From the IMG/VR virus record IMGVR_UViG_3300005467_000019, positions 1-43,441 of that record: a stretch of 43,441 bases of DNA; one strand, given 5' to 3'. Shown here one piece after another: positions 2,929-43,402 of the stretch. The notes beneath the pieces are model-generated. The model searched no databases. It saw only the letters and a list, made by a program, of their open reading frames with translations, and had not been told where the DNA came from. Numbering within the stretch: the first letter of the stretch is position 1; each line of letters begins with the position of its first letter. Origin of the DNA: a virus. Made by a program: the position numbers and the translations under genes.

Positions 2929-3570
2929 ATGCAGGATCTTGAGAATGAAGACGAAGTCCTAGGTGTCCTTGAGCACTTCGGTGTGAAGGGTATGCGTTGG
3001 GGACAGCGGAAGTCCCCCGCGGAACGTGTTGCGGCCGCTCAGGCGAAGACGAACCGTAAGGCCGTCAGGCAGGATGAGCGTCACGACCAGATGTGGCGTA
3101 ACAGCGCGAACGACAGCGCTCGTGCTTTCTGGGTCTACCACGCGGCCAAGAAGGACATGAAGAAGAACGGTATTCCTGCTCTGAACAATAGCCGGAAGTA
3201 CAAGGGCAAGGACCTCAAAGCCAACCCGAAGCTTCGCCAGCAGTACATGAAGGACTTCTCGGACGCCTTCACCAAGTCGATGAACCAGCAGTCGCTGCAC
3301 CAGATCGGCTTGGACTCGACCGGCACCAAGATGGTCAAGTTCACGTACGACATGAGTGATCCGCAGGTGCCCAAGGGCAAGATCGTCACGATCGGTGGTA
3401 CCAAGAAGAAGGTCAAGCACTCTGCGATCGATATTCCGGATCTGCCGGATGAGATCCCAGTGACGTTCACCTTCGGGCCGAACGGCGAGATCGTCGACGT
3501 CATCTATGACGACCCGGTGGAGCACTCGGAGAAGGTTGAGGATTTCCTCGTTGGAGTCCTCGCGCAGTAA
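2929..3570 (+). CDS. Virion-associated protein with HFGVKGMRWG motif
   Basis: A 213-residue basic protein. Residues 15-27 read EHFGVKGMRWGQR, a compact motif (H-[FY]-G-[VI]-K-G-M-[RK]-W-G) that recurs near one end of many phage head-associated proteins and whose function is not settled. The rest is Lys-rich and helical up to about residue 125, then a beta-rich segment ending in an acidic tail (DDPVEHSEKVEDFLVGVL). A role in the head, as a scaffold, internal or ejected protein, is inferred from the motif and from its place just before the terminase. GAGAGGAGG precedes the ATG. A related but different motif starts the RNA polymerase-like protein at 40461. Confidence 0.6.
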   Translation: MQDLENEDEVLGVLEHFGVKGMRWGQRKSPAERVAAAQAKTNRKAVRQDERHDQMWRNSANDSARAFWVYHAAKKDMKKNGIPALNNSRKYKGKDLKANPKLRQQYMKDFSDAFTKSMNQQSLHQIGLDSTGTKMVKFTYDMSDPQVPKGKIVTIGGTKKKVKHSAIDIPDLPDEIPVTFTFGPNGEIVDVIYDDPVEHSEKVEDFLVGVLAQ

Positions 3571-3597: not shown

Positions 3598-3879
3598 ATG
3601 GACAACGAGCAGCTCAAGGTTCTCGAGGCGATCAACGAGGGAGCCGTACCGACGGGAGACTGGACCGACAAGCCGGCGATCCCCGCGAGCACGGTGGAGG
3701 CTACCAACACGTCGGCACGAGGCATGTTCGTCGAGGTCACTGGTGGCACTGTCACTGTGGTCAAGGTGGACGGTGTCACCGTGGGTGCCCGCGTCTCGGG
3801 CATGTTCTACGTTCGTCCGGGGAGCACGATCGCGCTGACCTACAGCGTGGCGCCGACCTGGCAGTGGTTCTCCGTCTAG
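3598..3879 (+). CDS. Small beta-rich structural protein
   Basis: A 93-residue protein with a short helical N-terminus and then alternating hydrophobic strands (GMFVEVTGGTVTVVKVDG, GMFYVRPGSTIALTYSV). This pattern suggests a small beta-sandwich. Similar short proteins occur in actinophage head or tail operons, where they may decorate capsids or fibres; I cannot decide which. AAAGGGAG precedes the ATG. It has no cysteine, signal peptide or catalytic motif. Confidence 0.55.
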   Translation: MDNEQLKVLEAINEGAVPTGDWTDKPAIPASTVEATNTSARGMFVEVTGGTVTVVKVDGVTVGARVSGMFYVRPGSTIALTYSVAPTWQWFSV

Positions 3880-3898
3880 TTCGAGGGGAGGATTGGCA

Positions 3899-5644
3899 AT
3901 GGGTCTATCGAATACAGCGACTCCGATCTACTACGGTCTGTTTCGTGACGCGGTTCTCCGTGGAGAGATTCCCGTAAACCGGGAAATTGCAATGGAGATG
4001 AACCGTATCGATGCTCTCATTGCCAATCCGAACTACTACTACGACGACTTGGCCGTCGAGGGGTTCATTCTCTTCTGTGAGAACGAGCTAACGCTAACTG
4101 ATGGTAGTGACTTGCATCTGCTGCCGTCGTTCAAGGTGTGGGCGGAACAGATCTTCGGTTGGTATGAGTTCGTAGATCGTCAAGTCTACGAGCCAGATCT
4201 CAACCACCCGCTTGGTGGTCACTACGTAACTAAGGTGATCAAGAAGCGCCTTACTACCAAGCAATACCTGATCGTGGCACGTGGCGCAGCCAAGTCGATG
4301 TACGCATCGTGCCTCCAAAACTACTTTCTAACGGTCGACACGGCAACGACCCACCAGATCACCACCGCTCCGACCATGAAGCAGGCCGACGAGGTCATGT
4401 CTCCCATGCGGACGGCGATCACCAGAAGCCGCGGCCCCCTATACAAGTTCCTAACCGAGGGTTCCCTCCAGAACACCACCGGGTCCCGGGCCAATCGAGT
4501 GAAGCTGGCCTCTACCAAGAAGGGCGTTGAGAACTTCCTGACTGGTTCTCTGCTCGAGATCCGGCCGATGGCGATCAACAAGCTACAAGGACTTCGCCCC
4601 AAGGTGTCGACGATCGACGAGTGGTTGTCTGGAGATCTGAGAGAGGATGTTGTCGGTGCTGTTGAGCAAGGAGCGTCGAAGCTCGACGACTGGCTGATCA
4701 TTGCTATCAGTTCTGAGGGAACGGTTCGGAACGGTTCTGGCGACACAATCAAAATGGAACTCGCCAGTATACTGCGAGGCGAGTACGACGCTCCTCACGT
4801 CTCGATCTGGCATTACAAACTGGACGAGTTGGAGGAAGTCGCCGATCCTCGCATGTGGCCGAAGGCGAATCCGAACATTGGCATGACCGTTTCTTACGAA
4901 ACGTACCAGCTCGACGTGGAACGTGCCGAAAAGGCCCCAGCTTCTAGGAATGACATCCTAGCGAAGCGATTCGGCATCCCCATGGAAGGCTACACATACT
5001 TCTTCACCTACGAAGAGACCATTCCGCACCGGCCTGTCAGCTTCTGGGAGATGCCGTGTTCACTCGGAGCTGACCTTTCACAGGGTGACGACTTCTGTGC
5101 ATTCACTTTCCTTTTCCCACTCCGCAGTGGTTTCGGTGTCAAGACCCGAAGCTACATTTCAAGACTAACCCTTGACAGACTTCCTGGTGCCATGCGCATC
5201 AAGTACCAGGAGTTTATGGACGAGGGTAGCCTTCACGTTCTTGAGGGATCAATCCTCGAGATGATGGAGGTCTACGAAGACCTTGAGGCCTTCATAGAAC
5301 GTGAGAAGTACGATGTTCGTGCTCTCGGGTTCGACCCCTATAACGCTAAGGAGTTCGTGACTCGCTGGGAACAGGAAAACGGGCCTTACGCGATCGAGAA
5401 GGTCATTCAGGGCGCCAAAACCGAGTCGGTTCCTCTCGGAGAGCTCAAGATCATGAGCGAACAGCGTCTACTTATATTCGACCAACGGCTGATGATGTTC
5501 GCAATGGGCAACTGCATCACGCTTGAGGACACCAATGGGAACCGGAAGCTCCTGAAGAAACGTCAGGATGAGAAGATCGACAATGTGGCGGCCTTGATGG
5601 ACGCTTACGTTGCGTACAAGGCCAACAAGGAGGCGTTCGAATGA
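3899..5644 (+). CDS. terL: Terminase large subunit
   Basis: This 581-residue protein is the packaging motor ATPase and nuclease. A Walker A-like loop is at residues 126-133 (VARGAAKS), and Walker B with the catalytic acidic pair is in STIDEW at about 237-242. A second domain has RNase H-like nuclease signatures: Asp in GADLSQGDD (about 392), FDPYNAK (about 480) and a late Asp in KIDNVAALMDA. Length and order fit siphovirus large terminases. I prefer ATG 3899 with GAGGGGAGG upstream over the in-frame TTG at 3893. It is followed directly by the portal gene, the standard order. Confidence 0.95.
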   Translation: MGLSNTATPIYYGLFRDAVLRGEIPVNREIAMEMNRIDALIANPNYYYDDLAVEGFILFCENELTLTDGSDLHLLPSFKVWAEQIFGWYEFVDRQVYEPDLNHPLGGHYVTKVIKKRLTTKQYLIVARGAAKSMYASCLQNYFLTVDTATTHQITTAPTMKQADEVMSPMRTAITRSRGPLYKFLTEGSLQNTTGSRANRVKLASTKKGVENFLTGSLLEIRPMAINKLQGLRPKVSTIDEWLSGDLREDVVGAVEQGASKLDDWLIIAISSEGTVRNGSGDTIKMELASILRGEYDAPHVSIWHYKLDELEEVADPRMWPKANPNIGMTVSYETYQLDVERAEKAPASRNDILAKRFGIPMEGYTYFFTYEETIPHRPVSFWEMPCSLGADLSQGDDFCAFTFLFPLRSGFGVKTRSYISRLTLDRLPGAMRIKYQEFMDEGSLHVLEGSILEMMEVYEDLEAFIEREKYDVRALGFDPYNAKEFVTRWEQENGPYAIEKVIQGAKTESVPLGELKIMSEQRLLIFDQRLMMFAMGNCITLEDTNGNRKLLKKRQDEKIDNVAALMDAYVAYKANKEAFE

Positions 5645-5665: not shown

Positions 5666-6925
5666 GTGCCAAGCATCCTGAGTAGATTCAGAGCGAGGAT
5701 CTCGCACGCGTGGAATGCGTTCACGAATGAGAAGCTGGAAGATCGTATTCGAGTTGCCGGCGGCGGTGGCACTAGCTACAGCTGGCGACCGGACAAGATT
5801 CGAATGCGGTATTCCAACGAACGTTCGATCATCGCTTCGATCTACATGCGCCTCGGAATCGATGCGTCATCGGTCGACATCCGTCACATCCGTCGAGATG
5901 CGGACGGACGTTACATAGAGGACATCAACAGCGGTTTGCAGAATTGCCTGAGTCTCGAAGCCAACATCGACCAAGCAGCTCGACAACTCCGCCAAGACAT
6001 CTTCCAGACGCTATTCGATCGTGGTTGCATTGCCATCGTCCCTGTCGACACTTCGGTGGACCCGTCTTCGACGGGCTTCGACATCAAGACGTTGCGCGTG
6101 GGGACCATCGTCGAATGGTTCCCGAAGCATGTTCGGGTGAACCTGTACAACGAAGAGAAGGGTTTCCGGGAGGACATCACTCTCGAGAAGAAGTTCGTTG
6201 CGATCGTGGAGAATCCACTCTACACGGTGATGAACGAGCCGAACTCGACTCTTCAGCGACTTGTTCGAAAGCTCAACCTGCTCGATGTGGTTGACGAACA
6301 GTCAAGCTCCGGCAAACTGGATCTGATCATTCAGCTTCCTTACGTCGTCAAGTCTGAAGCGAAGCGACAGCAGGCGATGCAGAGGAAGTCAGACCTCGAC
6401 GATCAGCTCCAGAACAGCAAGTACGGCGTCGCCTACATCGACGGCACGGAGAAGATCACCCAGCTGAACCGGCCGGCGGAGAACAACCTCCTCAAACAGG
6501 TCGAGATCCTGACCGAGCTTCTCTACTCCCAACTCGGTCTGACGACCAACGTCATGAACGGGACGGCCGACGAGGCCACCATGAGGAACTACTATGCCCG
6601 CACCATCGAGCCGCTAGTCGCCGCGGTGGTAGAAGCCATGCGGAGGGCATACCTCACCAAGACCGCTCGGTCCCAGGGCCAGTGGATCGCCTTCTACAAC
6701 GATCAGTTCAAGCTTGTTCCGTTGAAGGACCTCGCTGAGATCGCTGACAAGTTCCGTCGTGGAGAGATCGGATCACCGAACGACTTCCGACAAGTCATTG
6801 GCTGGAAGCCGCTGAAGACCGCAACTGCCGACGACACAAGAAACACCAACATGCCGGCTCCGTCGGAGTCGAATCCGTCAACAACTCAGAAACCGGAAGG
6901 GGACAGTCAAAATGGAAGCAGCTGA
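5666..6925 (+). CDS. Portal protein
   Basis: This 419-residue protein forms the dodecameric DNA entry vertex. It begins at GTG 5666 after GAGGGGAGG. Portal-type features include an N-terminal YSNERSIIASIYMRLGIDASS clamp-like region, a long helical middle (KSEAKRQQAMQRKSDLDDQLQNS) matching the stem, and the GTADEATMRNYYARTIEPL segment seen in HK97-type portals where subunits bind one another. The tail is Pro-, Ser- and Asn-rich and probably disordered. It overlaps the start of the protease-capsid fusion by 14 bases, so translation is probably coupled. Confidence 0.9.
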   Translation: MPSILSRFRARISHAWNAFTNEKLEDRIRVAGGGGTSYSWRPDKIRMRYSNERSIIASIYMRLGIDASSVDIRHIRRDADGRYIEDINSGLQNCLSLEANIDQAARQLRQDIFQTLFDRGCIAIVPVDTSVDPSSTGFDIKTLRVGTIVEWFPKHVRVNLYNEEKGFREDITLEKKFVAIVENPLYTVMNEPNSTLQRLVRKLNLLDVVDEQSSSGKLDLIIQLPYVVKSEAKRQQAMQRKSDLDDQLQNSKYGVAYIDGTEKITQLNRPAENNLLKQVEILTELLYSQLGLTTNVMNGTADEATMRNYYARTIEPLVAAVVEAMRRAYLTKTARSQGQWIAFYNDQFKLVPLKDLAEIADKFRRGEIGSPNDFRQVIGWKPLKTATADDTRNTNMPAPSESNPSTTQKPEGDSQNGSS

Positions 6926-8912
6926 CTTCAGCGGCTACGCCACCAAAGCTGGACTCAGGTGCTCCGACGGTCGAACCATCACCGCGCAGGCCTTCCAGCA
7001 CATGGATAAGGTCAAGGTTCCGCTCGTCTGGCAGCACACCCACAACGAGCCTGCCAAGGTCCTCGGTCATGCGATCCTCGAGGCCCGGCCCGACGGCGTT
7101 TACTGCCACGGCTTCTTCAACGAGACCGAGAACGGCAAGAACGCCAAGATCCTCGTTCAGCACAAGGACATCGAGAAGCTCTCGATCTGGGCGAACCAGC
7201 TCGTGGAGAAGTCGAAGCAGGTCCTGCACGGCTTCATCCGTGAGGTCAGCCTGGTCATGTCGGGCGCAAACCCCGGCGCGTTCATCGACAACATTCGCAT
7301 CGCACACGGCGAAGGCGATATCGACGTTCTGGACGACGAGGCGATCATCCACACCGGCCTGACGTTCGATTTCGTCGCAGAGACGGAAACGCCGGAGGGC
7401 GGCACGGTCGAGCACAAGGAGACCGAGCGTACCCCGCAGGAGATCTACGACTCCTTCGACGAGGACCAGAAGAAATTGGTCCACTCCATGGTCTCGAAGG
7501 CCCTCAAGGCCGATGGGGCTGCCGCCGAGCACTCGGACGGTACCGGAAACACCGACGAGGGTGACCTCGAACACAAGGAAGGGCAAGAAGAGATGACCCA
7601 TCGCAACGTTTTCGACAAGACCGACGACGGCGACCAGACGAACGGCAAGCTCCGGTACCTGGCGCACTCGGACGTGGTCTCGATCGCCGAGGAGTTCAAG
7701 CGCTGCGGCTCCTTCAAGGAGGCCTGGCAGTCCTTCAAGAAGGAGAAGGGCCTCGAGCTCAAGCACGGCATCGACAACATCGAGCTGCTGTTCCCGGACG
7801 CGAAGATGGTCGGCGACGGTCCCGAGTGGGACAAGCGCCGCACCGAGTGGGTCGCCGAGGTGCTCAACGGCACCAGCAAGACCCCCTTCTCCAAGATCAA
7901 GACCATGGTGGCGAACCTGACCCTGCTGGCGGCCCGTGCCAAGGGCTACGTCAAGGGTTCGATGAAGAAGGAAGAGTTCTTCGCGCTCACCAAGCGGACC
8001 ACCGGCCCGACCACGGTCTACAAGAAGCAGGGCCTCGACCGGGACGACATCGTCGACATCACCGAGATGGACGTCGTCGCCTGGCTCTGGGGCGAGATCC
8101 GGCTCATGCTGGAGGAGGAAATCGCGCGAGCGATCCTCATCGGCGACGGCCGTGACGTGGAGGACGAGGACAAGATCGCCGACCCGGCGGGTGCGTCTTC
8201 CGGCGACGGCATCCGTTCGATCCTGCACGACCACGACTACTACGCGCACACGATCAACGTCAACCTCGGCGCCACGCCGGACTACCTCCTGTTCATCGAC
8301 AAGGTGATCGAGAGCCGCCGCTACTACAAGGGCTCCGGTCTGCCGACGATGTTCACGACCGAGATCCACATCGCCAAGATGCTGACCCTGCGCAGCGATC
8401 TCACCGGTCTGCGGCTGTACCGCAACCTGGAGGAGCTGGCGACCGAGATGCGCGTCTCCAAGATCGTGCCCGTCGAGGCCATGGAGGAGGAGACCGATCT
8501 GATCGCGATCCTCGTCAACCTCCGCGATTACAACGTCGGCACGACCAAGGGCGGCGAGATCACCCGGTTCGACGACTTCGACATCGACTTCAACAAGTAC
8601 AAGTACCTCATGGAGGCTCGCCTGTCCGGCGCGCTCACCAAGGTGAAGTCGGCGCAGATCTACAAGTCCGTGACGAGCACCGACACGCTGGTGACCCCGA
8701 ACGCTCCGACCTTCGTGTCGAGCACGGGCGTCGTGACCATCGTCGCCACCACGGGTGTGGTCTACAAGAACAAGGACACGGGCGCGACCCTGTCCACCGG
8801 TGCTCAGGCGGCAATCGCCTCGGGCGCGTCCATCACCGTGGTCGCCACGCCGGCGTCGGGCTACTACCTGGCCGACAACATCAACGACGAGTGGACCTTC
8901 ACTCGCGACTAA
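6912..8912 (+). CDS. Prohead protease fused to major capsid protein
   Basis: A single 666-residue open frame joins two jobs. Residues 1-140 look like an S78-type prohead protease: a candidate catalytic His in WQHTH (42-44) and Ser113 in REVSLVMSGANPGA. An acidic linker (about 150-227, with several EH and HKE phrases) follows and could act as a scaffold or delta domain. From about 228 the protein is HK97-like major capsid: a long spine-helix-like region, LTLLAARAKGYVKGS, and a conserved ADYLL/MFTTEIHIAKML core. Residues about 596-666 form an Ig-like domain probably exposed on the capsid. An internal ATG at 7593 could give a capsid-only product, though its ribosome site (GGAAGGG) is far upstream. 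No frameshift is visible. Confidence 0.88.
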   Translation: MEAADFSGYATKAGLRCSDGRTITAQAFQHMDKVKVPLVWQHTHNEPAKVLGHAILEARPDGVYCHGFFNETENGKNAKILVQHKDIEKLSIWANQLVEKSKQVLHGFIREVSLVMSGANPGAFIDNIRIAHGEGDIDVLDDEAIIHTGLTFDFVAETETPEGGTVEHKETERTPQEIYDSFDEDQKKLVHSMVSKALKADGAAAEHSDGTGNTDEGDLEHKEGQEEMTHRNVFDKTDDGDQTNGKLRYLAHSDVVSIAEEFKRCGSFKEAWQSFKKEKGLELKHGIDNIELLFPDAKMVGDGPEWDKRRTEWVAEVLNGTSKTPFSKIKTMVANLTLLAARAKGYVKGSMKKEEFFALTKRTTGPTTVYKKQGLDRDDIVDITEMDVVAWLWGEIRLMLEEEIARAILIGDGRDVEDEDKIADPAGASSGDGIRSILHDHDYYAHTINVNLGATPDYLLFIDKVIESRRYYKGSGLPTMFTTEIHIAKMLTLRSDLTGLRLYRNLEELATEMRVSKIVPVEAMEEETDLIAILVNLRDYNVGTTKGGEITRFDDFDIDFNKYKYLMEARLSGALTKVKSAQIYKSVTSTDTLVTPNAPTFVSSTGVVTIVATTGVVYKNKDTGATLSTGAQAAIASGASITVVATPASGYYLADNINDEWTFTRD

Positions 8913-21974: not shown

Positions 21975-22320
21975 GACCTATAACCGGCTGCGGCTGGTTG
22001 CTCAGATCCTCCTCCCTGGTCTCTCGGCCCTATATTTCGGGCTCGCTGAGATCTGGCACTTCCCTTACCAGGCCCAGGTTTCGGGTACCATCGCCGTTCT
22101 GGGAGTATTCGTGGGCGTTCTGCTCACGTTCGCCCGCGCCATGCACGAAGCATCCGGGGCTCAGTACGACGGGGTTCTCAGTCTGGAACCTGACCCCGGC
22201 GGAGAAGGTTCGAACCTCAAGCTTCTGTCCATCGACTGGGACGCGCTTGAGAGCAAGAAGGCGATCAACTTCAAAGTGCGCCGGCCAACAGTTCCGCCGG
22301 TTCAGGGGGTCGCGGAATAA
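21937..22320 (+). CDS. Holin (r1t-type)
   Basis: This 127-residue protein has two membrane segments, about residues 22-40 (AQILLPGLSALYFGLAEIW) and 49-67 (VSGTIAVLGVFVGVLLTFA), with the pairing and spacing of r1t-family holins. It would form the lesion that releases the endolysin. The C-terminus is long, polar and ends in a basic plus Pro stretch. Start GTG 21937 follows CAAGGAG. Promoter cassette 1 overlaps its last codons, which marks the end of the late operon. Confidence 0.8.
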   Translation: METNTPTTLLTDRTYNRLRLVAQILLPGLSALYFGLAEIWHFPYQAQVSGTIAVLGVFVGVLLTFARAMHEASGAQYDGVLSLEPDPGGEGSNLKLLSIDWDALESKKAINFKVRRPTVPPVQGVAE

Positions 22321-22354
22321 ACACCGCCTATAATGAGACCCCTAACTGAAGGAG
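22310..22354 (+). promoter_or_regulatory. Promoter-leader cassette 1
   Basis: Upstream box TCGCGGAAT (22310-22318), TATAAT (22329-22334), GAGACCCC, CTAACTGAAGGAG leader. It drives the gene at 22360. No TTGACA-like -35 sequence is at the usual distance. The in-frame ATG inside TATAATG (22333) is part of the promoter, not the gene start. Confidence 0.75.
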
Positions 22355-22778: not shown

Positions 22779-22822
22779 TCGCAAGATTCGCAGCCCCTAT
22801 AATGAGACCCCTATCTAAGGAG
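22779..22822 (+). promoter_or_regulatory. Promoter-leader cassette 2
   Basis: TCGCAAGAT (22779-22787), TATAAT (22798-22803), GAGACCCC, TATCTAAGGAG. It drives the gene at 22829, which starts six bases after AAGGAG. Confidence 0.78.
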
Positions 22823-23031: not shown

Positions 23032-23062
23032 CCAACAGCCCCTAACACGGGCTTTGGTTTTT
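23032..23062 (+). terminator. Rho-independent terminator
   Basis: Stem CCAA..AGCCC / GGGCT..TTGG (23032-23041 with 23049-23057) with a CTAACAC loop and TTTTT. The T-run abuts promoter cassette 3, whose upstream box starts at the last T. The loop resembles those of the terminators at 26145 and 37581. Confidence 0.8.
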
Positions 23063-23106
23063 CGCAGGAATTACAACCCCTATAATGAGACCCCCTAACT
23101 AAGGAG
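23062..23106 (+). promoter_or_regulatory. Promoter-leader cassette 3
   Basis: TCGCAGGAAT (23062-23071), TACAACCCC, TATAAT (23081-23086), GAGACCCC, CTAACTAAGGAG. This is the best consensus copy. It drives the small gene at 23114. Confidence 0.8.
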
Positions 23107-25819: not shown

Positions 25820-25863
25820 TCGCAAGAACTACCAACCCTATAATGAGACCCCAATCTAAGGAG
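25820..25863 (+). promoter_or_regulatory. Promoter-leader cassette 4
   Basis: TCGCAAGAACT (25820-25830), TATAAT (25839-25844), GAGACCCC, AATCTAAGGAG. It drives the gene at 25870. Confidence 0.78.
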
Positions 25864-34703: not shown

Positions 34704-34735
34704 TCGCAGGAATTACACCGCCTATAATGAGACCC
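34704..34735 (+). promoter_or_regulatory. Promoter cassette 5
   Basis: TCGCAGGAAT (34704-34713), TACACCGCC, TATAAT (34723-34728), GAGACCC. This copy lacks the short CTAACTAAGGAG leader and instead has a longer leader (see 34729-34805). Confidence 0.78.
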
Positions 34736-34805
34736 AGAGAGTTCATACCTCTCAACTGCTGAGAAGCATGGGCTCTCTTTAATGCCCCCGTTAAGGAGGA
34801 CGACA
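34729..34805 (+). promoter_or_regulatory. Long leader with alternative hairpins
   Basis: After the promoter, AGAGAG (near 34736) can pair with the nearby CTCTC (near 34750) as GAGAG-loop-CTCTC, or with the later CTCTCT (near 34774). The Shine-Dalgarno AAGGAGG is at 34794-34800. Switching between the two pairings could control translation or attenuation of the next gene. It is a prediction from sequence only. Confidence 0.4.
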
Positions 34806-37260: not shown

Positions 37261-37306
37261 CTCGTAGTTTTTACGAGGCCTATAATGAGACCCCCTAACT
37301 AAGGAG
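37261..37306 (+). promoter_or_regulatory. Promoter cassette 6 with operator-like repeat
   Basis: TATAAT (37281-37286), GAGACCCC, CTAACTAAGGAG as in cassette 3. The usual upstream box is replaced by an inverted repeat CTCGTA-GTTTT-TACGAG (37261-37277), which could be an operator or a hairpin. It drives the gene at 37312. Confidence 0.72.
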
Positions 37307-39930: not shown

Positions 39931-40464
39931 ATGGGCACCCACGCATTCCTCAGCCCAAGCAGCCCCGCCTGGGTCAACTACGATGAGGACAAGCTCGATC
40001 GGGTGTTCTTCGCTGCCCTGGCAGCCCAACGTGGAACCGACCTCCACGACCTAGCTCACCGCTGCATCAAGCTGCGTGTGAAGCTCCCGGAGACCCCAAC
40101 CACCCTGAACCTCTACGTGAACGACGCCATCGGTTTTCAGATGACGCCGGAACAGTTGTTGTACTACTCAGACAACTGCTACGGCCACGCCGACTGTGTC
40201 GGTTTCCGAAAGAACACGCTTAGGATTCACGATCTGAAGACCGGCGTGAACGAGGCGCCTTTCAAGCAACTCGAGATCTACACGGCCTTGTTCTGTCTGG
40301 AGTACAAGTACAAGCCGAGCGAGATCAAGATCGAACTTCGAATCTACCAGAATGATGGCGTGAAGGTTCTGAACCCCGACCCTGACGACATCTTCCACAT
40401 CATGGACCGGATTCGAACCTTCGACAAGCGGATCACGGAGAACCGAATGGAGGCACTGTCTTGA
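39931..40464 (+). CDS. RecB/Cas4-like exonuclease
   Basis: A 177-residue PD-(D/E)XK nuclease. RGTDLHDLAHRCI (candidate motif with His), GHADCVGF (Asp), LRIHDLKTG (Asp and Lys of DLK) and QLEIYTALFC (Q helix) follow the RecB order. It would process DNA ends in replication or recombination. Cysteines are present (CIKL, CYGHADC, FCLEY) but not in the Cas4 iron-sulphur arrangement I would expect, so the name Cas4 is only by family resemblance. TAGGAG precedes the ATG, and the stop overlaps the polymerase start (TTGA). Confidence 0.75.
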   Translation: MGTHAFLSPSSPAWVNYDEDKLDRVFFAALAAQRGTDLHDLAHRCIKLRVKLPETPTTLNLYVNDAIGFQMTPEQLLYYSDNCYGHADCVGFRKNTLRIHDLKTGVNEAPFKQLEIYTALFCLEYKYKPSEIKIELRIYQNDGVKVLNPDPDDIFHIMDRIRTFDKRITENRMEALS

Positions 40465-43139
40465 TCATCACCGAGGAAGAATACCTCGCTCACTACGGAA
40501 TTCTTCGTCGGTCGGGCAGGTACCCATGGGGCTCTGGTGGCCCAGAAACGAACAGTGGTCCTCACTCATTCCTCGGCATGGTCGACGGGATGAAGAAGGC
40601 AGGTCTCAGTGAAAAGGAAATTGCTGACGGCCTTGGTATCACTACTACTCAACTTCGTGCCGCCAAGTCCATCGCCAAGGCTGAGCAGAAGCAGGCTGAC
40701 ATCTCTCGCGCCCAGCGTCTCAAGGACGAGGGAAACTCAAACATCGCCATCGGCAAAGAAATGGGGATCAACGAGTCCTCGGTTCGAGCTCTGCTGGCCC
40801 CTGGCGAGAAAATCAAGGCCGATGTTCTAGCCTCCACTGCGAACATGCTCAAAGAGCAGGTGGCGGAGAAGAAGTACGTAGATGTGGGTGCTGGTGTCGA
40901 TCAGCATCTCGGTGTCAGCTCAACGAAGCTCAGCACCGCGGTAGCCCGACTTCGCGAAGAAGGTTACACCCTCCACTACGTCAAGGTTGAGCAGCTGGGT
41001 ACTGGCCAGCAAACGAGCATGAAAGTTCTCGCCGCCCCAGGCACGTCGTACGGAGAGGTCTTTCGCAACCGCGCAGAGATCAAGCTGCCCACCTCGTTCT
41101 CCAACGATGGAGGTCATACCTATCTGGGCCTCGAGCCTCCGCTTGCAATCCACCCGAAGCGAGTTGGCGTTCGTTACGCCGAAGACGGTGGCGCTGACGC
41201 AGACGGCGTGATCTATGTTCGGCCTGGCGTCAAGGATGTATCCCTGGACGGGTCGCGCTACGCTCAGGTTCGCATCCAGGTAGGCAAGGATCACTACCTC
41301 AAGGGCATGGCGATGTACAAGGATGACCTCCCTGAGGGTGTCGACCTTGTATTCAACACGAACAAGAGCAACACAGGCAACAAGCTTGACGCAATGAAGA
41401 AGCTGAAGACCGACAAAGATGGAAACGTCGACACAGATAACCCGTTTGGCGCAGTCATCGATCGTCAGGTCATCAAGGTGGACAAGAAGGGTGGCAAGAA
41501 AGTCACCTCTGTAATGAACATCGTCAACGAAGAAGGTTCTTGGGAGAAGTGGTCCAAGAGTCTGTCTTCGCAGATGCTGTCCAAGCAGAGCCCCGCCTTG
41601 GCCAAGGGCCAGCTTGACATGACGTTCGAGCGAAAGAAGCGCGAATTCGACGACATTATGGCGTTGACTAACCCTGCGGTCAAGAAGCGTTTGCTTGATT
41701 CGTTCGCAGACGACGTCGACTCCTCGGCTGTGCATCTCAAGGCTGCCGCCCTGCCTAGGCAAGGGTCGCATGTCATTCTCCCCATCAATTCGATGAAAGA
41801 GAATGAGATCTATGCCCCTAACTACAGGAATGGTGAACGAGTCGCCCTGATTCGTTACCCCCATGGTGGGATCTTCGAGATCCCTGAGCTGACTGTAAAC
41901 AACAACCACCCTGAAGCGAAGAAGCTTCTAGGTAATGCCAAGGATGCAGTCGGCATCAACCATAAGGTGGCGCAGAAGCTGTCTGGTGCAGACTTCGACG
42001 GCGACACTGTTCTTGTGATTCCGAACAACAACAAGCGAGTCAAGTCATCGCCGGCACTGGAAGGTCTTAAGGACTTCGATCCAGTGCGCACATACAAGTT
42101 GCCGGATGACAGCCCCATCGCCAGGATGACTCCTAGGCAGAAGGCTATCGAGATGGGTGTTGTGTCTAACCTCATCACCGACATGACCATCAAGGGAGCA
42201 AACACGTCCGAGCTTGCTCGAGCAGTTCGGCACTCCATGGTCGTGATCGATGCTGAGAAGCATGGCCTCAACTACAAGCAGTCCGCCTTGGACAACGGCA
42301 TCGCGCAACTCAAGGCTAAGTATCAAGGCAGTGCCACTTCTGGCGCAGCAACCCTAATCTCTAGGGCATCCGCTGATGTGCGGGTTCCTGATAGGAAAGA
42401 AAGGTCTGCCGCTAAAGGTGGTTCTGTAGACAAGGCCACTGGCAAGAAGGTGTTCGAGCCCACCGGAGAAACCTTTGTCAACATTGATGGCAAGATAGTC
42501 AAGAAGACTGTCAAGTCTAAGCGTTTGGCAGAGACCGACGATGCAAGTACCCTCTCTTCTGGTACCCCCATAGAGAAGGTCTATGCTGACCACTCGAACA
42601 AACTGAAGGACCTAGCCAACCAGGCAAGGAAGGCAGCAGTACATACTAAGCCTACCCAACGGTCTTCTTCAGCAGCCACCACGTACCACAAAGAAGTGGC
42701 CTCCCTAGACGCTAAGTTGAAAGTTGCTTTGGCAAACGCGCCTTTGGAAAGACACGCCCAGGTCATAGCAAACGGCATTGTCTCCCAGAAACGCGCAGCC
42801 AACCCCGATCTCGAGCCTGCTGATGTGAAGAAGCTGAAATCACAAGCTTTGAACGCAGCCCGTGCAAGAACAGGCGCCAAGAAACAAAGAATCGAGATCA
42901 CAGACAACGAATGGGCCGCTATCCAGGCAGGCGCCATCAGTCCTAGTAAGTTGGATCGCATCCTGAGTAATGCAGATCTGGATGTGGTCAAACAAAGGGC
43001 AACACCAAAGACTGAGGTCTTGATGACATCGGCAAAGACACAAAGAGCCTTGGCTATGGCCAATTCTGGCTACACCCAGGCCGAAATCGCTGATGCTCTA
43101 GGTGTCTCCTTGACTACTCTTAAGCGGGCCATAGGCTGA
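40461..43139 (+). CDS. Double-psi beta-barrel RNA polymerase-like protein with HTH motifs
   Basis: An 892-residue protein. Residues 511-515 read DFDGD within GADFDGDTVLVIP, the metal-binding signature of multisubunit and YonO/QDE-1-type RNA polymerases (DxDxD). Before it are GERVALIRYPHGGIFEIPEL (second barrel, about 465-485) and ALPRQGSHVILP. A first-barrel candidate is YLKGMAMYKDDLPEGVDLVF (about 279-299, with Lys281 and Lys288). After it, about 559-613, a bridge-like helix region (EMGVVSNLITDMTIKGAN, SMVVIDAEKHGLNYKQS). HTH motifs lie at about 47-70, 85-113 and 863-892. Residues 11-26 (HYGILRRSGRYPWGSG) resemble a virion-protein motif. The start is TTG 40461 with GGAGG seven bases before it. 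It is probably a phage RNA polymerase; template and promoter are not known. Confidence 0.82.
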   Translation: MIITEEEYLAHYGILRRSGRYPWGSGGPETNSGPHSFLGMVDGMKKAGLSEKEIADGLGITTTQLRAAKSIAKAEQKQADISRAQRLKDEGNSNIAIGKEMGINESSVRALLAPGEKIKADVLASTANMLKEQVAEKKYVDVGAGVDQHLGVSSTKLSTAVARLREEGYTLHYVKVEQLGTGQQTSMKVLAAPGTSYGEVFRNRAEIKLPTSFSNDGGHTYLGLEPPLAIHPKRVGVRYAEDGGADADGVIYVRPGVKDVSLDGSRYAQVRIQVGKDHYLKGMAMYKDDLPEGVDLVFNTNKSNTGNKLDAMKKLKTDKDGNVDTDNPFGAVIDRQVIKVDKKGGKKVTSVMNIVNEEGSWEKWSKSLSSQMLSKQSPALAKGQLDMTFERKKREFDDIMALTNPAVKKRLLDSFADDVDSSAVHLKAAALPRQGSHVILPINSMKENEIYAPNYRNGERVALIRYPHGGIFEIPELTVNNNHPEAKKLLGNAKDAVGINHKVAQKLSGADFDGDTVLVIPNNNKRVKSSPALEGLKDFDPVRTYKLPDDSPIARMTPRQKAIEMGVVSNLITDMTIKGANTSELARAVRHSMVVIDAEKHGLNYKQSALDNGIAQLKAKYQGSATSGAATLISRASADVRVPDRKERSAAKGGSVDKATGKKVFEPTGETFVNIDGKIVKKTVKSKRLAETDDASTLSSGTPIEKVYADHSNKLKDLANQARKAAVHTKPTQRSSSAATTYHKEVASLDAKLKVALANAPLERHAQVIANGIVSQKRAANPDLEPADVKKLKSQALNAARARTGAKKQRIEITDNEWAAIQAGAISPSKLDRILSNADLDVVKQRATPKTEVLMTSAKTQRALAMANSGYTQAEIADALGVSLTTLKRAIG

Positions 43140-43150
43140 AAGGAGGGCAC

Positions 43151-43402
43151 ATGAAGGAACACATGCTGTCTACTATCGACAATCCATTCAATCCGTTCAC
43201 TGAATGGGATGCATGGTTTCAGTTTGATGAGAGCCAGGGCTACAAATCAACCGCCCTCCTCGACAGAGTGGCCAAGACTTCTTACGAACTCTCTGATGCC
43301 GATCAGAGTCTTGCGATCGAAGAAGCGATTGATGAGATTGTTCGTGAGAACGTGAACGGAATGTACATCAAGATAGCAGAAGACGAAGACGCAATCAGGT
43401 AG
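43151..43402 (+). CDS. Conserved small phage protein
   Basis: An 83-residue protein of a small phage family of unknown role: STIDNPFNPFTEWDAWFQFD, then STALLDRVAKTSYELSDADQ, then LAIEEAIDEIVRENVNGMYIKI. It is acidic and helical. AAAGGAGG precedes the ATG and it is the last gene of the window, directly after the polymerase, so it is probably co-transcribed. It might be an accessory factor of the polymerase; this is guesswork from position. Confidence 0.65.
   Translation: MKEHMLSTIDNPFNPFTEWDAWFQFDESQGYKSTALLDRVAKTSYELSDADQSLAIEEAIDEIVRENVNGMYIKIAEDEDAIR

Follow-up and report, generated by a model that had tools for sequence, protein, structure and literature searches.

Does the RNA polymerase-like gene near the right-hand end of virus record IMGVR_UViG_3300005467_000019 encode an enzyme made in the infected cell, or one that arrives there inside the virus particle? 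We analysed positions 1-43,441 of this record, and the whole 43.4-kb stretch, whose gene order resembles that of Streptomyces phage Bilo, is referred to below as the window. We consider it probable that the gene product is a single-chain, two-barrel DNA-dependent RNA polymerase, which would be built into the phage head at assembly and injected together with the DNA. The gene and the parts of it that bear on its identity are as follows.

40461..43139, + strand: predicted single-chain two-barrel RNA polymerase gene, 892 amino acids (aa), PHROG 4291 (open reading frame (ORF), profile match, homologues and fold model)
40569..40793, + strand: N-terminal helical region with two helix-turn-helix (HTH)-like segments, residues ~37-111 (domain search and model)
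41253..41367, + strand: lysine-bearing putative first barrel region, residues ~265-302, with K281 and K302 invariant (alignment and model, the barrel taken from the QDE-1 fold match)
41991..42005, + strand: catalytic DFDGD, residues 511-515, invariant in 84 relatives (alignment)
43029..43133, + strand: C-terminal HTH, residues ~857-891 (domain search and model)

The frame at 40461-43139 is a real gene. It opens with a TTG start codon that overlaps the stop codon of the upstream exonuclease gene (TTGA) in a coupled arrangement, and it stands far beyond chance because it matches PHROG 4291 at 1349 bits over its full length (residues 4-890 against positions 7-904 of the 909 in the profile) and has full-length homologues in 249 phage records (at least 80 % coverage, 39-68 % identity). 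The phages concerned infect Arthrobacter, Gordonia, Streptomyces, Lactococcus, Curtobacterium, Rhodococcus, Microbacterium, Bifidobacterium and Faecalibacterium, and further homologues were present in more than 500 metagenomic viral stretches. The family is already catalogued, under the PHROG label RNA-dependent RNA polymerase and, by most depositors, as a helix-turn-helix protein; existing annotation gives no function, packaging tag or promoter.

An earlier, sequence-only reading had proposed a single-chain two-barrel polymerase from the DFDGD at residues 511-515, the preceding barrel sequence GERVALIRYPHGG and the segment YLKGMAMYKDD, all of which are present as claimed, and had suggested a structural comparison, which returned a QDE-1-like fold. 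The AlphaFold model of the polymerase (predicted local distance difference test score (pLDDT) 85, predicted template modelling score (pTM) 0.75) was matched by Foldseek to QDE-1 (E 1e-10), P74-26 gp62 (E 1.5e-6) and maize RDR2 (E 2e-6), each with a probability of 1.00, and comparison with viral models also matched a P23-45 protein. Global template modelling scores were only ~0.3, which is typical of remote matches between large multi-domain proteins, and the two barrels are taken from the QDE-1-like match, without strand-by-strand tracing. A direct sequence search of the PDB with the polymerase returned nothing relevant, and the fold link therefore rests on the model. The protein has the DxDxD metal-binding triad and the conserved barrel lysines that mark the two-barrel single-chain clade: D511, D513, D515, K281, K302 and K313 are all invariant in an alignment of 84 relatives. 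The HTH motifs noticed at both ends were also borne out, with an HTH_24 match at the C-terminus (E 1e-8), a weaker match near the N-terminus and helices in the model at both. Taken with the invariant catalytic residues, the model makes the assignment as a two-barrel single-chain polymerase well supported.

That the polymerase probably travels inside the virus particle is suggested by one annotation and by its N-terminal sequence. In the original GenBank record of Lactococcus phage 1706, the orthologue orf75 is labelled 'structural protein', and Rhodococcus phage ReqiPoco6 gp106 is named after it. Structural labels on genes without structural homology normally derive from virion proteomics, which the paper on phage 1706 reportedly included. 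The same label was given to 1706 orf62 and orf71, which likewise lie outside the structural module, most of their neighbours being labelled 'unknown'. These two (locus L003) lack the tag described below, so that either some proteins reach the virion without it or contaminants are among those labelled. A literature search for Gordonia virion proteomics found none.

The sequence in question is a short tag in the leader of the polymerase.

40485..40538, + strand: N-terminal tag, residues 9-26, L-A-H-Y-G-I-L-R-R-S-G-R-Y-P-W-G-S-G, in the predicted disordered leader, its L-x-H equal to the putative prohead-protease site
2929..3570, + strand: head-module protein with L-E-H-F-G-V-K-G-M-R-W-G near its N-terminus and a V-E-H-S site near its C-terminus (motif search)

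Residues 1-34 of the polymerase are predicted to be disordered, yet they include a segment that ranks among the most conserved in the protein, namely H11-Y12-G13 followed by S18-G19-R20-Y21-P22-W23-G24-S25-G26. The N-terminal HYGILRRSGRYPWGSG singled out previously is thus nearly invariant across the family, where it takes the form [LI]-x-H-Y-G-x4-S-G-R-Y-P-W-G-S-G; G13, S18, G19, R20 and G24 are present in 84/84 polymerase sequences, and the position two before the histidine is L, I, M or F in all 79 cases. The HFGVKGMRWG protein to which it had been compared exists at 2929-3570 and bears a related motif. This sister motif, L-x-H-x-G-V-K-G-M-K-W-G-V-R-R, was found in one to five proteins per genome, mostly beside the terminase and portal genes, in every polymerase-bearing genome whose structural region was in the sample. 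The fetched loci gave 78 matches, every one of them on the coding strand; shuffled ORFs gave 1.3. The proteins that carry it are otherwise diverse, with annotations that include acetyltransferase and RNA ligase, and one of them, 1706 orf7, was deposited as a structural protein. A hybrid motif in locus L128 (HYGVGHLQGGHSGRWPWGSGKYKNSDGSL) bridges the two forms.

Several tagged proteins are of interest in their own right. Gordonia phage Eddiemania gp15 (L178:4948-6636), annotated as an RNA ligase, has a KGMKWG-type tag and adjoins the terminase gene, making it a candidate injected RNA-repair enzyme. A human-gut phage contig encodes two short basic proteins with an SGRYKWGSG-type tag and no polymerase domain (L005:1284-1898 and 3636-4214), which are possible head cargo. 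Other tag-bearing (motif-A) proteins have two copies of the tag around separate domains (L001:2269-3171, L003:2501-3889, L091:9829-11382 and L092:2820-3827) with L-x-H sites between the copies (in Bilo gp6, KLQH-GAD precedes the second motif), an arrangement that would suit polyproteins cut into several head-cargo proteins.

The first half of the polymerase motif coincides with a site that recurs in the capsid gene of the lineage.

6912..8912, + strand: maturation protease-linker-major capsid fusion, PHROG 3270, with a linker rich in [LIVM]-x-H and a last site LKH at residues 283-285

Across ten nonredundant capsid fusions, 64 of the 73 linker histidines fall within [LIVMF]-x-H, compared to a mean of 15 and a maximum of 26 in 1000 shuffles; S, A or G follows the histidine in 51 of these 64. 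The last linker site lies three or seven residues before the conserved start of the capsid domain (three in the window), and the remainder of the capsid protein contains just three such sites in 3264 aa. From this pattern we infer that the prohead protease cuts after L-x-H. Ranking 544 ORFs from 11 genome pieces by L-x-H enrichment placed capsid fusions and motif-A proteins in nearly all of the top positions; this per-gene test allowed an aromatic residue after the histidine and so counts the motif's own site, such that the enrichment of motif-A genes is partly due to the motif itself, while the capsid-linker result is independent of it. The body of the polymerase is depleted of L-x-H sites (19 vs 51 expected). 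The earlier suggestion of packaging via the N-terminal motif thus gains support from the 1706 label, from a motif common to head-module proteins and from the overlap with the putative protease site, and stands as a prediction from sequence and annotation.

A further feature, absent from the sequence-only reading, fits the early-transcription idea. An element of ~35 bp, T-CGCA-N4-TTACA-N4-C-TATAATGAGACCCC, occurs in six copies in the window, some with a few mismatches.

22310..22344, + strand: candidate phage promoter 1, early region (45.1 bits)
22779..22813, + strand: candidate phage promoter 2 (39.2 bits)
23062..23096, + strand: candidate phage promoter 3 (48.0 bits)
25820..25854, + strand: candidate phage promoter 4 (41.0 bits)
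34704..34738, + strand: candidate phage promoter 5, replication region (48.1 bits)
37262..37296, + strand: candidate phage promoter 6, upstream of the helicase-exonuclease-polymerase gene cluster (35.8 bits)

The core TATAATGAGACCCC was found six times in the window against 0.14 expected. Copies precede early and middle genes, with none in the structural half of the genomes scanned, and the same spacing was seen in Bilo (5 copies), Secretariat (9), Mudcat (6) and ReqiPoco6. A more diverged element was present in Lactococcus phages P078 (6) and 1706 (3 above threshold) and in Bifidobacterium phage BitterVaud1 (4); the element is therefore kept across phages of Actinobacteria (Arthrobacter, Gordonia, Streptomyces) and, in diverged form, of Lactococcus. 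Shuffled genomes gave zero matches and the real sites were all on the coding strand, 531 of 581 standing before a ribosome-binding site and start codon at a median distance of 21 nt. Conservation runs past TATAAT into GAGACCCC, and the profile of the 581 sites contains no -35 box at sigma-70 spacing. This profile was built from sites within four mismatches of the consensus, which inflates the information in the core; the T before CGCA (92 %) and the CCCC after GAGA lie outside the selection and are unaffected.

Searches in both directions tied the element to the polymerase lineage. Among loci retrieved with the polymerase protein as the query, independently of the element, 46 sites lay on the polymerase strand and none on the opposite strand. 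A search of 257 Gb of bacterial and archaeal genomes yielded one match (~0.5 expected by chance), and at least 118 stretches among viral contigs carried the element. Of 39 long viral contigs with it, 34 matched the polymerase, one of these (G005) by a fragment only; the five without a match, as well as G005, have the lineage capsid gene, and the five also have the lineage DNA polymerase gene. Co-occurrence of polymerase and capsid was dropped as proof of coupling between them, the DNA primase/polymerase and the downstream PHROG 4303 gene co-occurring equally.

The copy at 37262 precedes the polymerase gene's own cluster, and the right arm of the window shows no excess of sigma-70-like sites over shuffles. 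If the element is read by the polymerase, the enzyme would have to be supplied at the start from outside, i.e. by the virion. Streptomyces promoters vary, and a host promoter there could escape detection.

We propose the following sequence of events. The disordered leader, with [LI]-x-H-Y-G-x4-SGRYPWGSG, would direct the polymerase into the prohead, as the HxGVKGMKWG motif would direct other head-cargo proteins, and the prohead protease fused to the major capsid protein, which appears to cut after L-x-H, may trim the leader. The polymerase would then stay in the virion, in line with the one orthologue deposited as structural, and enter the cell, where it would recognize T-CGCA-N4-TTACA-N4-C-TATAATGAGACCCC, perhaps via its own HTH domains, and transcribe the early and middle genes, its own cluster among them. 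The element is missing from the late structural genes, for which another reader, such as the host polymerase, is probable. Both the reading of the element by the phage enzyme and the role of the tag in import we infer from position, conservation and analogy with T4 capsid-targeting sequences. More broadly, and with less assurance than for the packaged enzyme itself, we favour a model in which a Gram-positive phage lineage loads head enzymes via an N-terminal L-x-H-x-G...W-G tag seen by the capsid-assembly system, with a capsid-fused protease that cuts after L-x-H and, as the main cargo, a free two-barrel RNA polymerase that starts infection from a ~35-bp promoter in phages from Lactococcus to Streptomyces.

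CrAss-like phi14:2 gp66 and P23-45 gp96 are virion RNA polymerases that read the earliest genes (PMC10770324), as is proposed here for a virion-delivered two-barrel enzyme, but they are fused to large structural or ejected proteins, whereas the present polymerase stands alone as a ~100-kDa chain that bears a short N-terminal tag; the nearest phage structure, P74-26 gp62, is a homologue of the non-virion gp64. Of the known systems, these are the ones that the present enzyme would most resemble in its action and, on the sequence evidence and the annotation of one orthologue, membership among the virion polymerases is likely. The RNA-interference polymerases QDE-1 and eukaryotic RDR give the best fold match (E 1e-10) but share only 11-15 % identity and no HTHs, and the context here is that of a viral DNA phage. 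For the tag, the parallel is with T4. Internal proteins of that phage have a short N-terminal import tag with a prohead-protease site of the kind that cuts the capsid precursor; the proposed tag would likewise combine import with such a site, but the T4 site is L/I-x-E rather than L-x-H and lacks the conserved G...W-G part that follows the site here. Within the family, 1706 orf75, ReqiPoco6 gp106 and Bilo gp57 (PHROG 4291; 'HTH DNA-binding domain protein' in SEA-PHAGES) are full-length relatives with the same N-terminal motif, and PHROG 4291 members share a position at the right genome end before PHROG 4303, with no difference in kind.

Some observations weigh against a packaged polymerase with its own promoter. 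The residue after the L-x-H of the motif is aromatic, as opposed to S, A or G in the capsid linkers, which makes cleavage at the polymerase motif uncertain; head targeting by the tag is the safer claim. Contamination could account for the 'structural protein' label of 1706 orf75. FP_oengus fell below the set threshold for the element, a relaxed search giving only a diverged CGCG...ACA...CTTTATGA, which is weaker evidence. The TATAAT resembles a sigma-70 -10 box, so the host polymerase could contribute, and as the polymerase, capsid fusion, DNA polymerase and PHROG 4303 co-occur, shared ancestry alone would carry tag and promoter along.

These points bear on several other explanations. YonO of phage SPbeta, a single-chain two-barrel RNA polymerase with the Asp triad, transcribes late genes after infection (PMC5467207), and the present enzyme, also phage-encoded, single-chain and with two predicted barrels and the triad, might be made in the same way from host-driven transcripts and read middle or late genes, the motif serving another interaction or being a relic, and the TATAAT allowing host sigma factors to start the cascade. 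We consider this unlikely: unlike in the YonO system, the element precedes early and middle genes, including the polymerase cluster, with no copy in the structural half of the genomes scanned; the chain has HTHs and a head-type tag, the latter being the most conserved part of the disordered leader and common to head-module proteins; the 1706 orthologue was deposited as structural; and the right arm has no more sigma-70-like sites than shuffles do. Alternatively, the element could be a host sigma-70-type promoter with a phage activator on the CGCA/TTACA part, the polymerase reading other sequences; its TATAAT is the -10 consensus and it lies just upstream of start codons. This is distinctly unlikely given that the 581 sites have no properly spaced -35 box, that conservation continues past TATAAT into GAGACCCC, that the spacing is kept in Lactococcus, Arthrobacter, Gordonia and Streptomyces phages with a single match in 257 Gb of bacterial genomes, and that the FP_oengus form CTTTATGA is not a -10 box.

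Two readings concern the activity of the protein. A true RNA-dependent RNA polymerase working on RNA templates, as the PHROG name has it, would agree with a weak Pfam RdRP match (E 7e-4, below the curated cut-off) and with the use of both RNA and DNA templates by QDE-1, the nearest solved fold, but is very improbable in DNA phages without an RNA stage, where HTH domains at both ends suggest recognition of double-stranded DNA and phage-specific promoter-like elements exist; the related enzymes that have been assayed, YonO and P23-45 gp64 and gp96, transcribe DNA (PMC5467207, PMC10770324). That the protein is a structural head component whose polymerase activity has been lost, as the deposition of the 1706 orthologue might be taken to mean, is scarcely credible given that 84 divergent sequences all keep the Asp triad and the three lysines, which argues for retained catalysis.

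Should the packaged polymerase hold true, ~250 sequenced phages, mostly annotated as carrying just an 'HTH protein', would be able to start infection without host RNA polymerase, and a virion polymerase would have both its import signal and its promoter defined. The tag would predict proteins injected by these phages, with an acetyltransferase and an RNA ligase among the candidates, which are otherwise learned from proteomics alone. The promoter would offer a direct handle on transcription by a compact two-barrel polymerase, for comparison with cellular RNA polymerase and the RNA-interference polymerases, and a single-chain enzyme with a dedicated promoter could serve as an orthogonal expression tool in Actinobacteria. 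In the open literature searched we found no account of the tag, of the L-x-H protease specificity or of the promoter.

Two other genes of the window were noted, the first of them directly downstream of the polymerase.

43163..43402, + strand: PHROG 4303, small acidic protein at a conserved position, candidate partner

This 80-aa acidic protein has an invariant D-N-P-x-x-P-F, and its gene lies within ~50 nt 3' of the polymerase in nearly all loci and occurs in the same phage records. Its AlphaFold model is confident (pLDDT 93) and found no fold match among PDB structures; we regard the protein as a candidate partner or inhibitor of the polymerase. Near the head genes, a collagen-like, tail-fibre-type ORF is present at 1979-2917, where Bilo has other genes.

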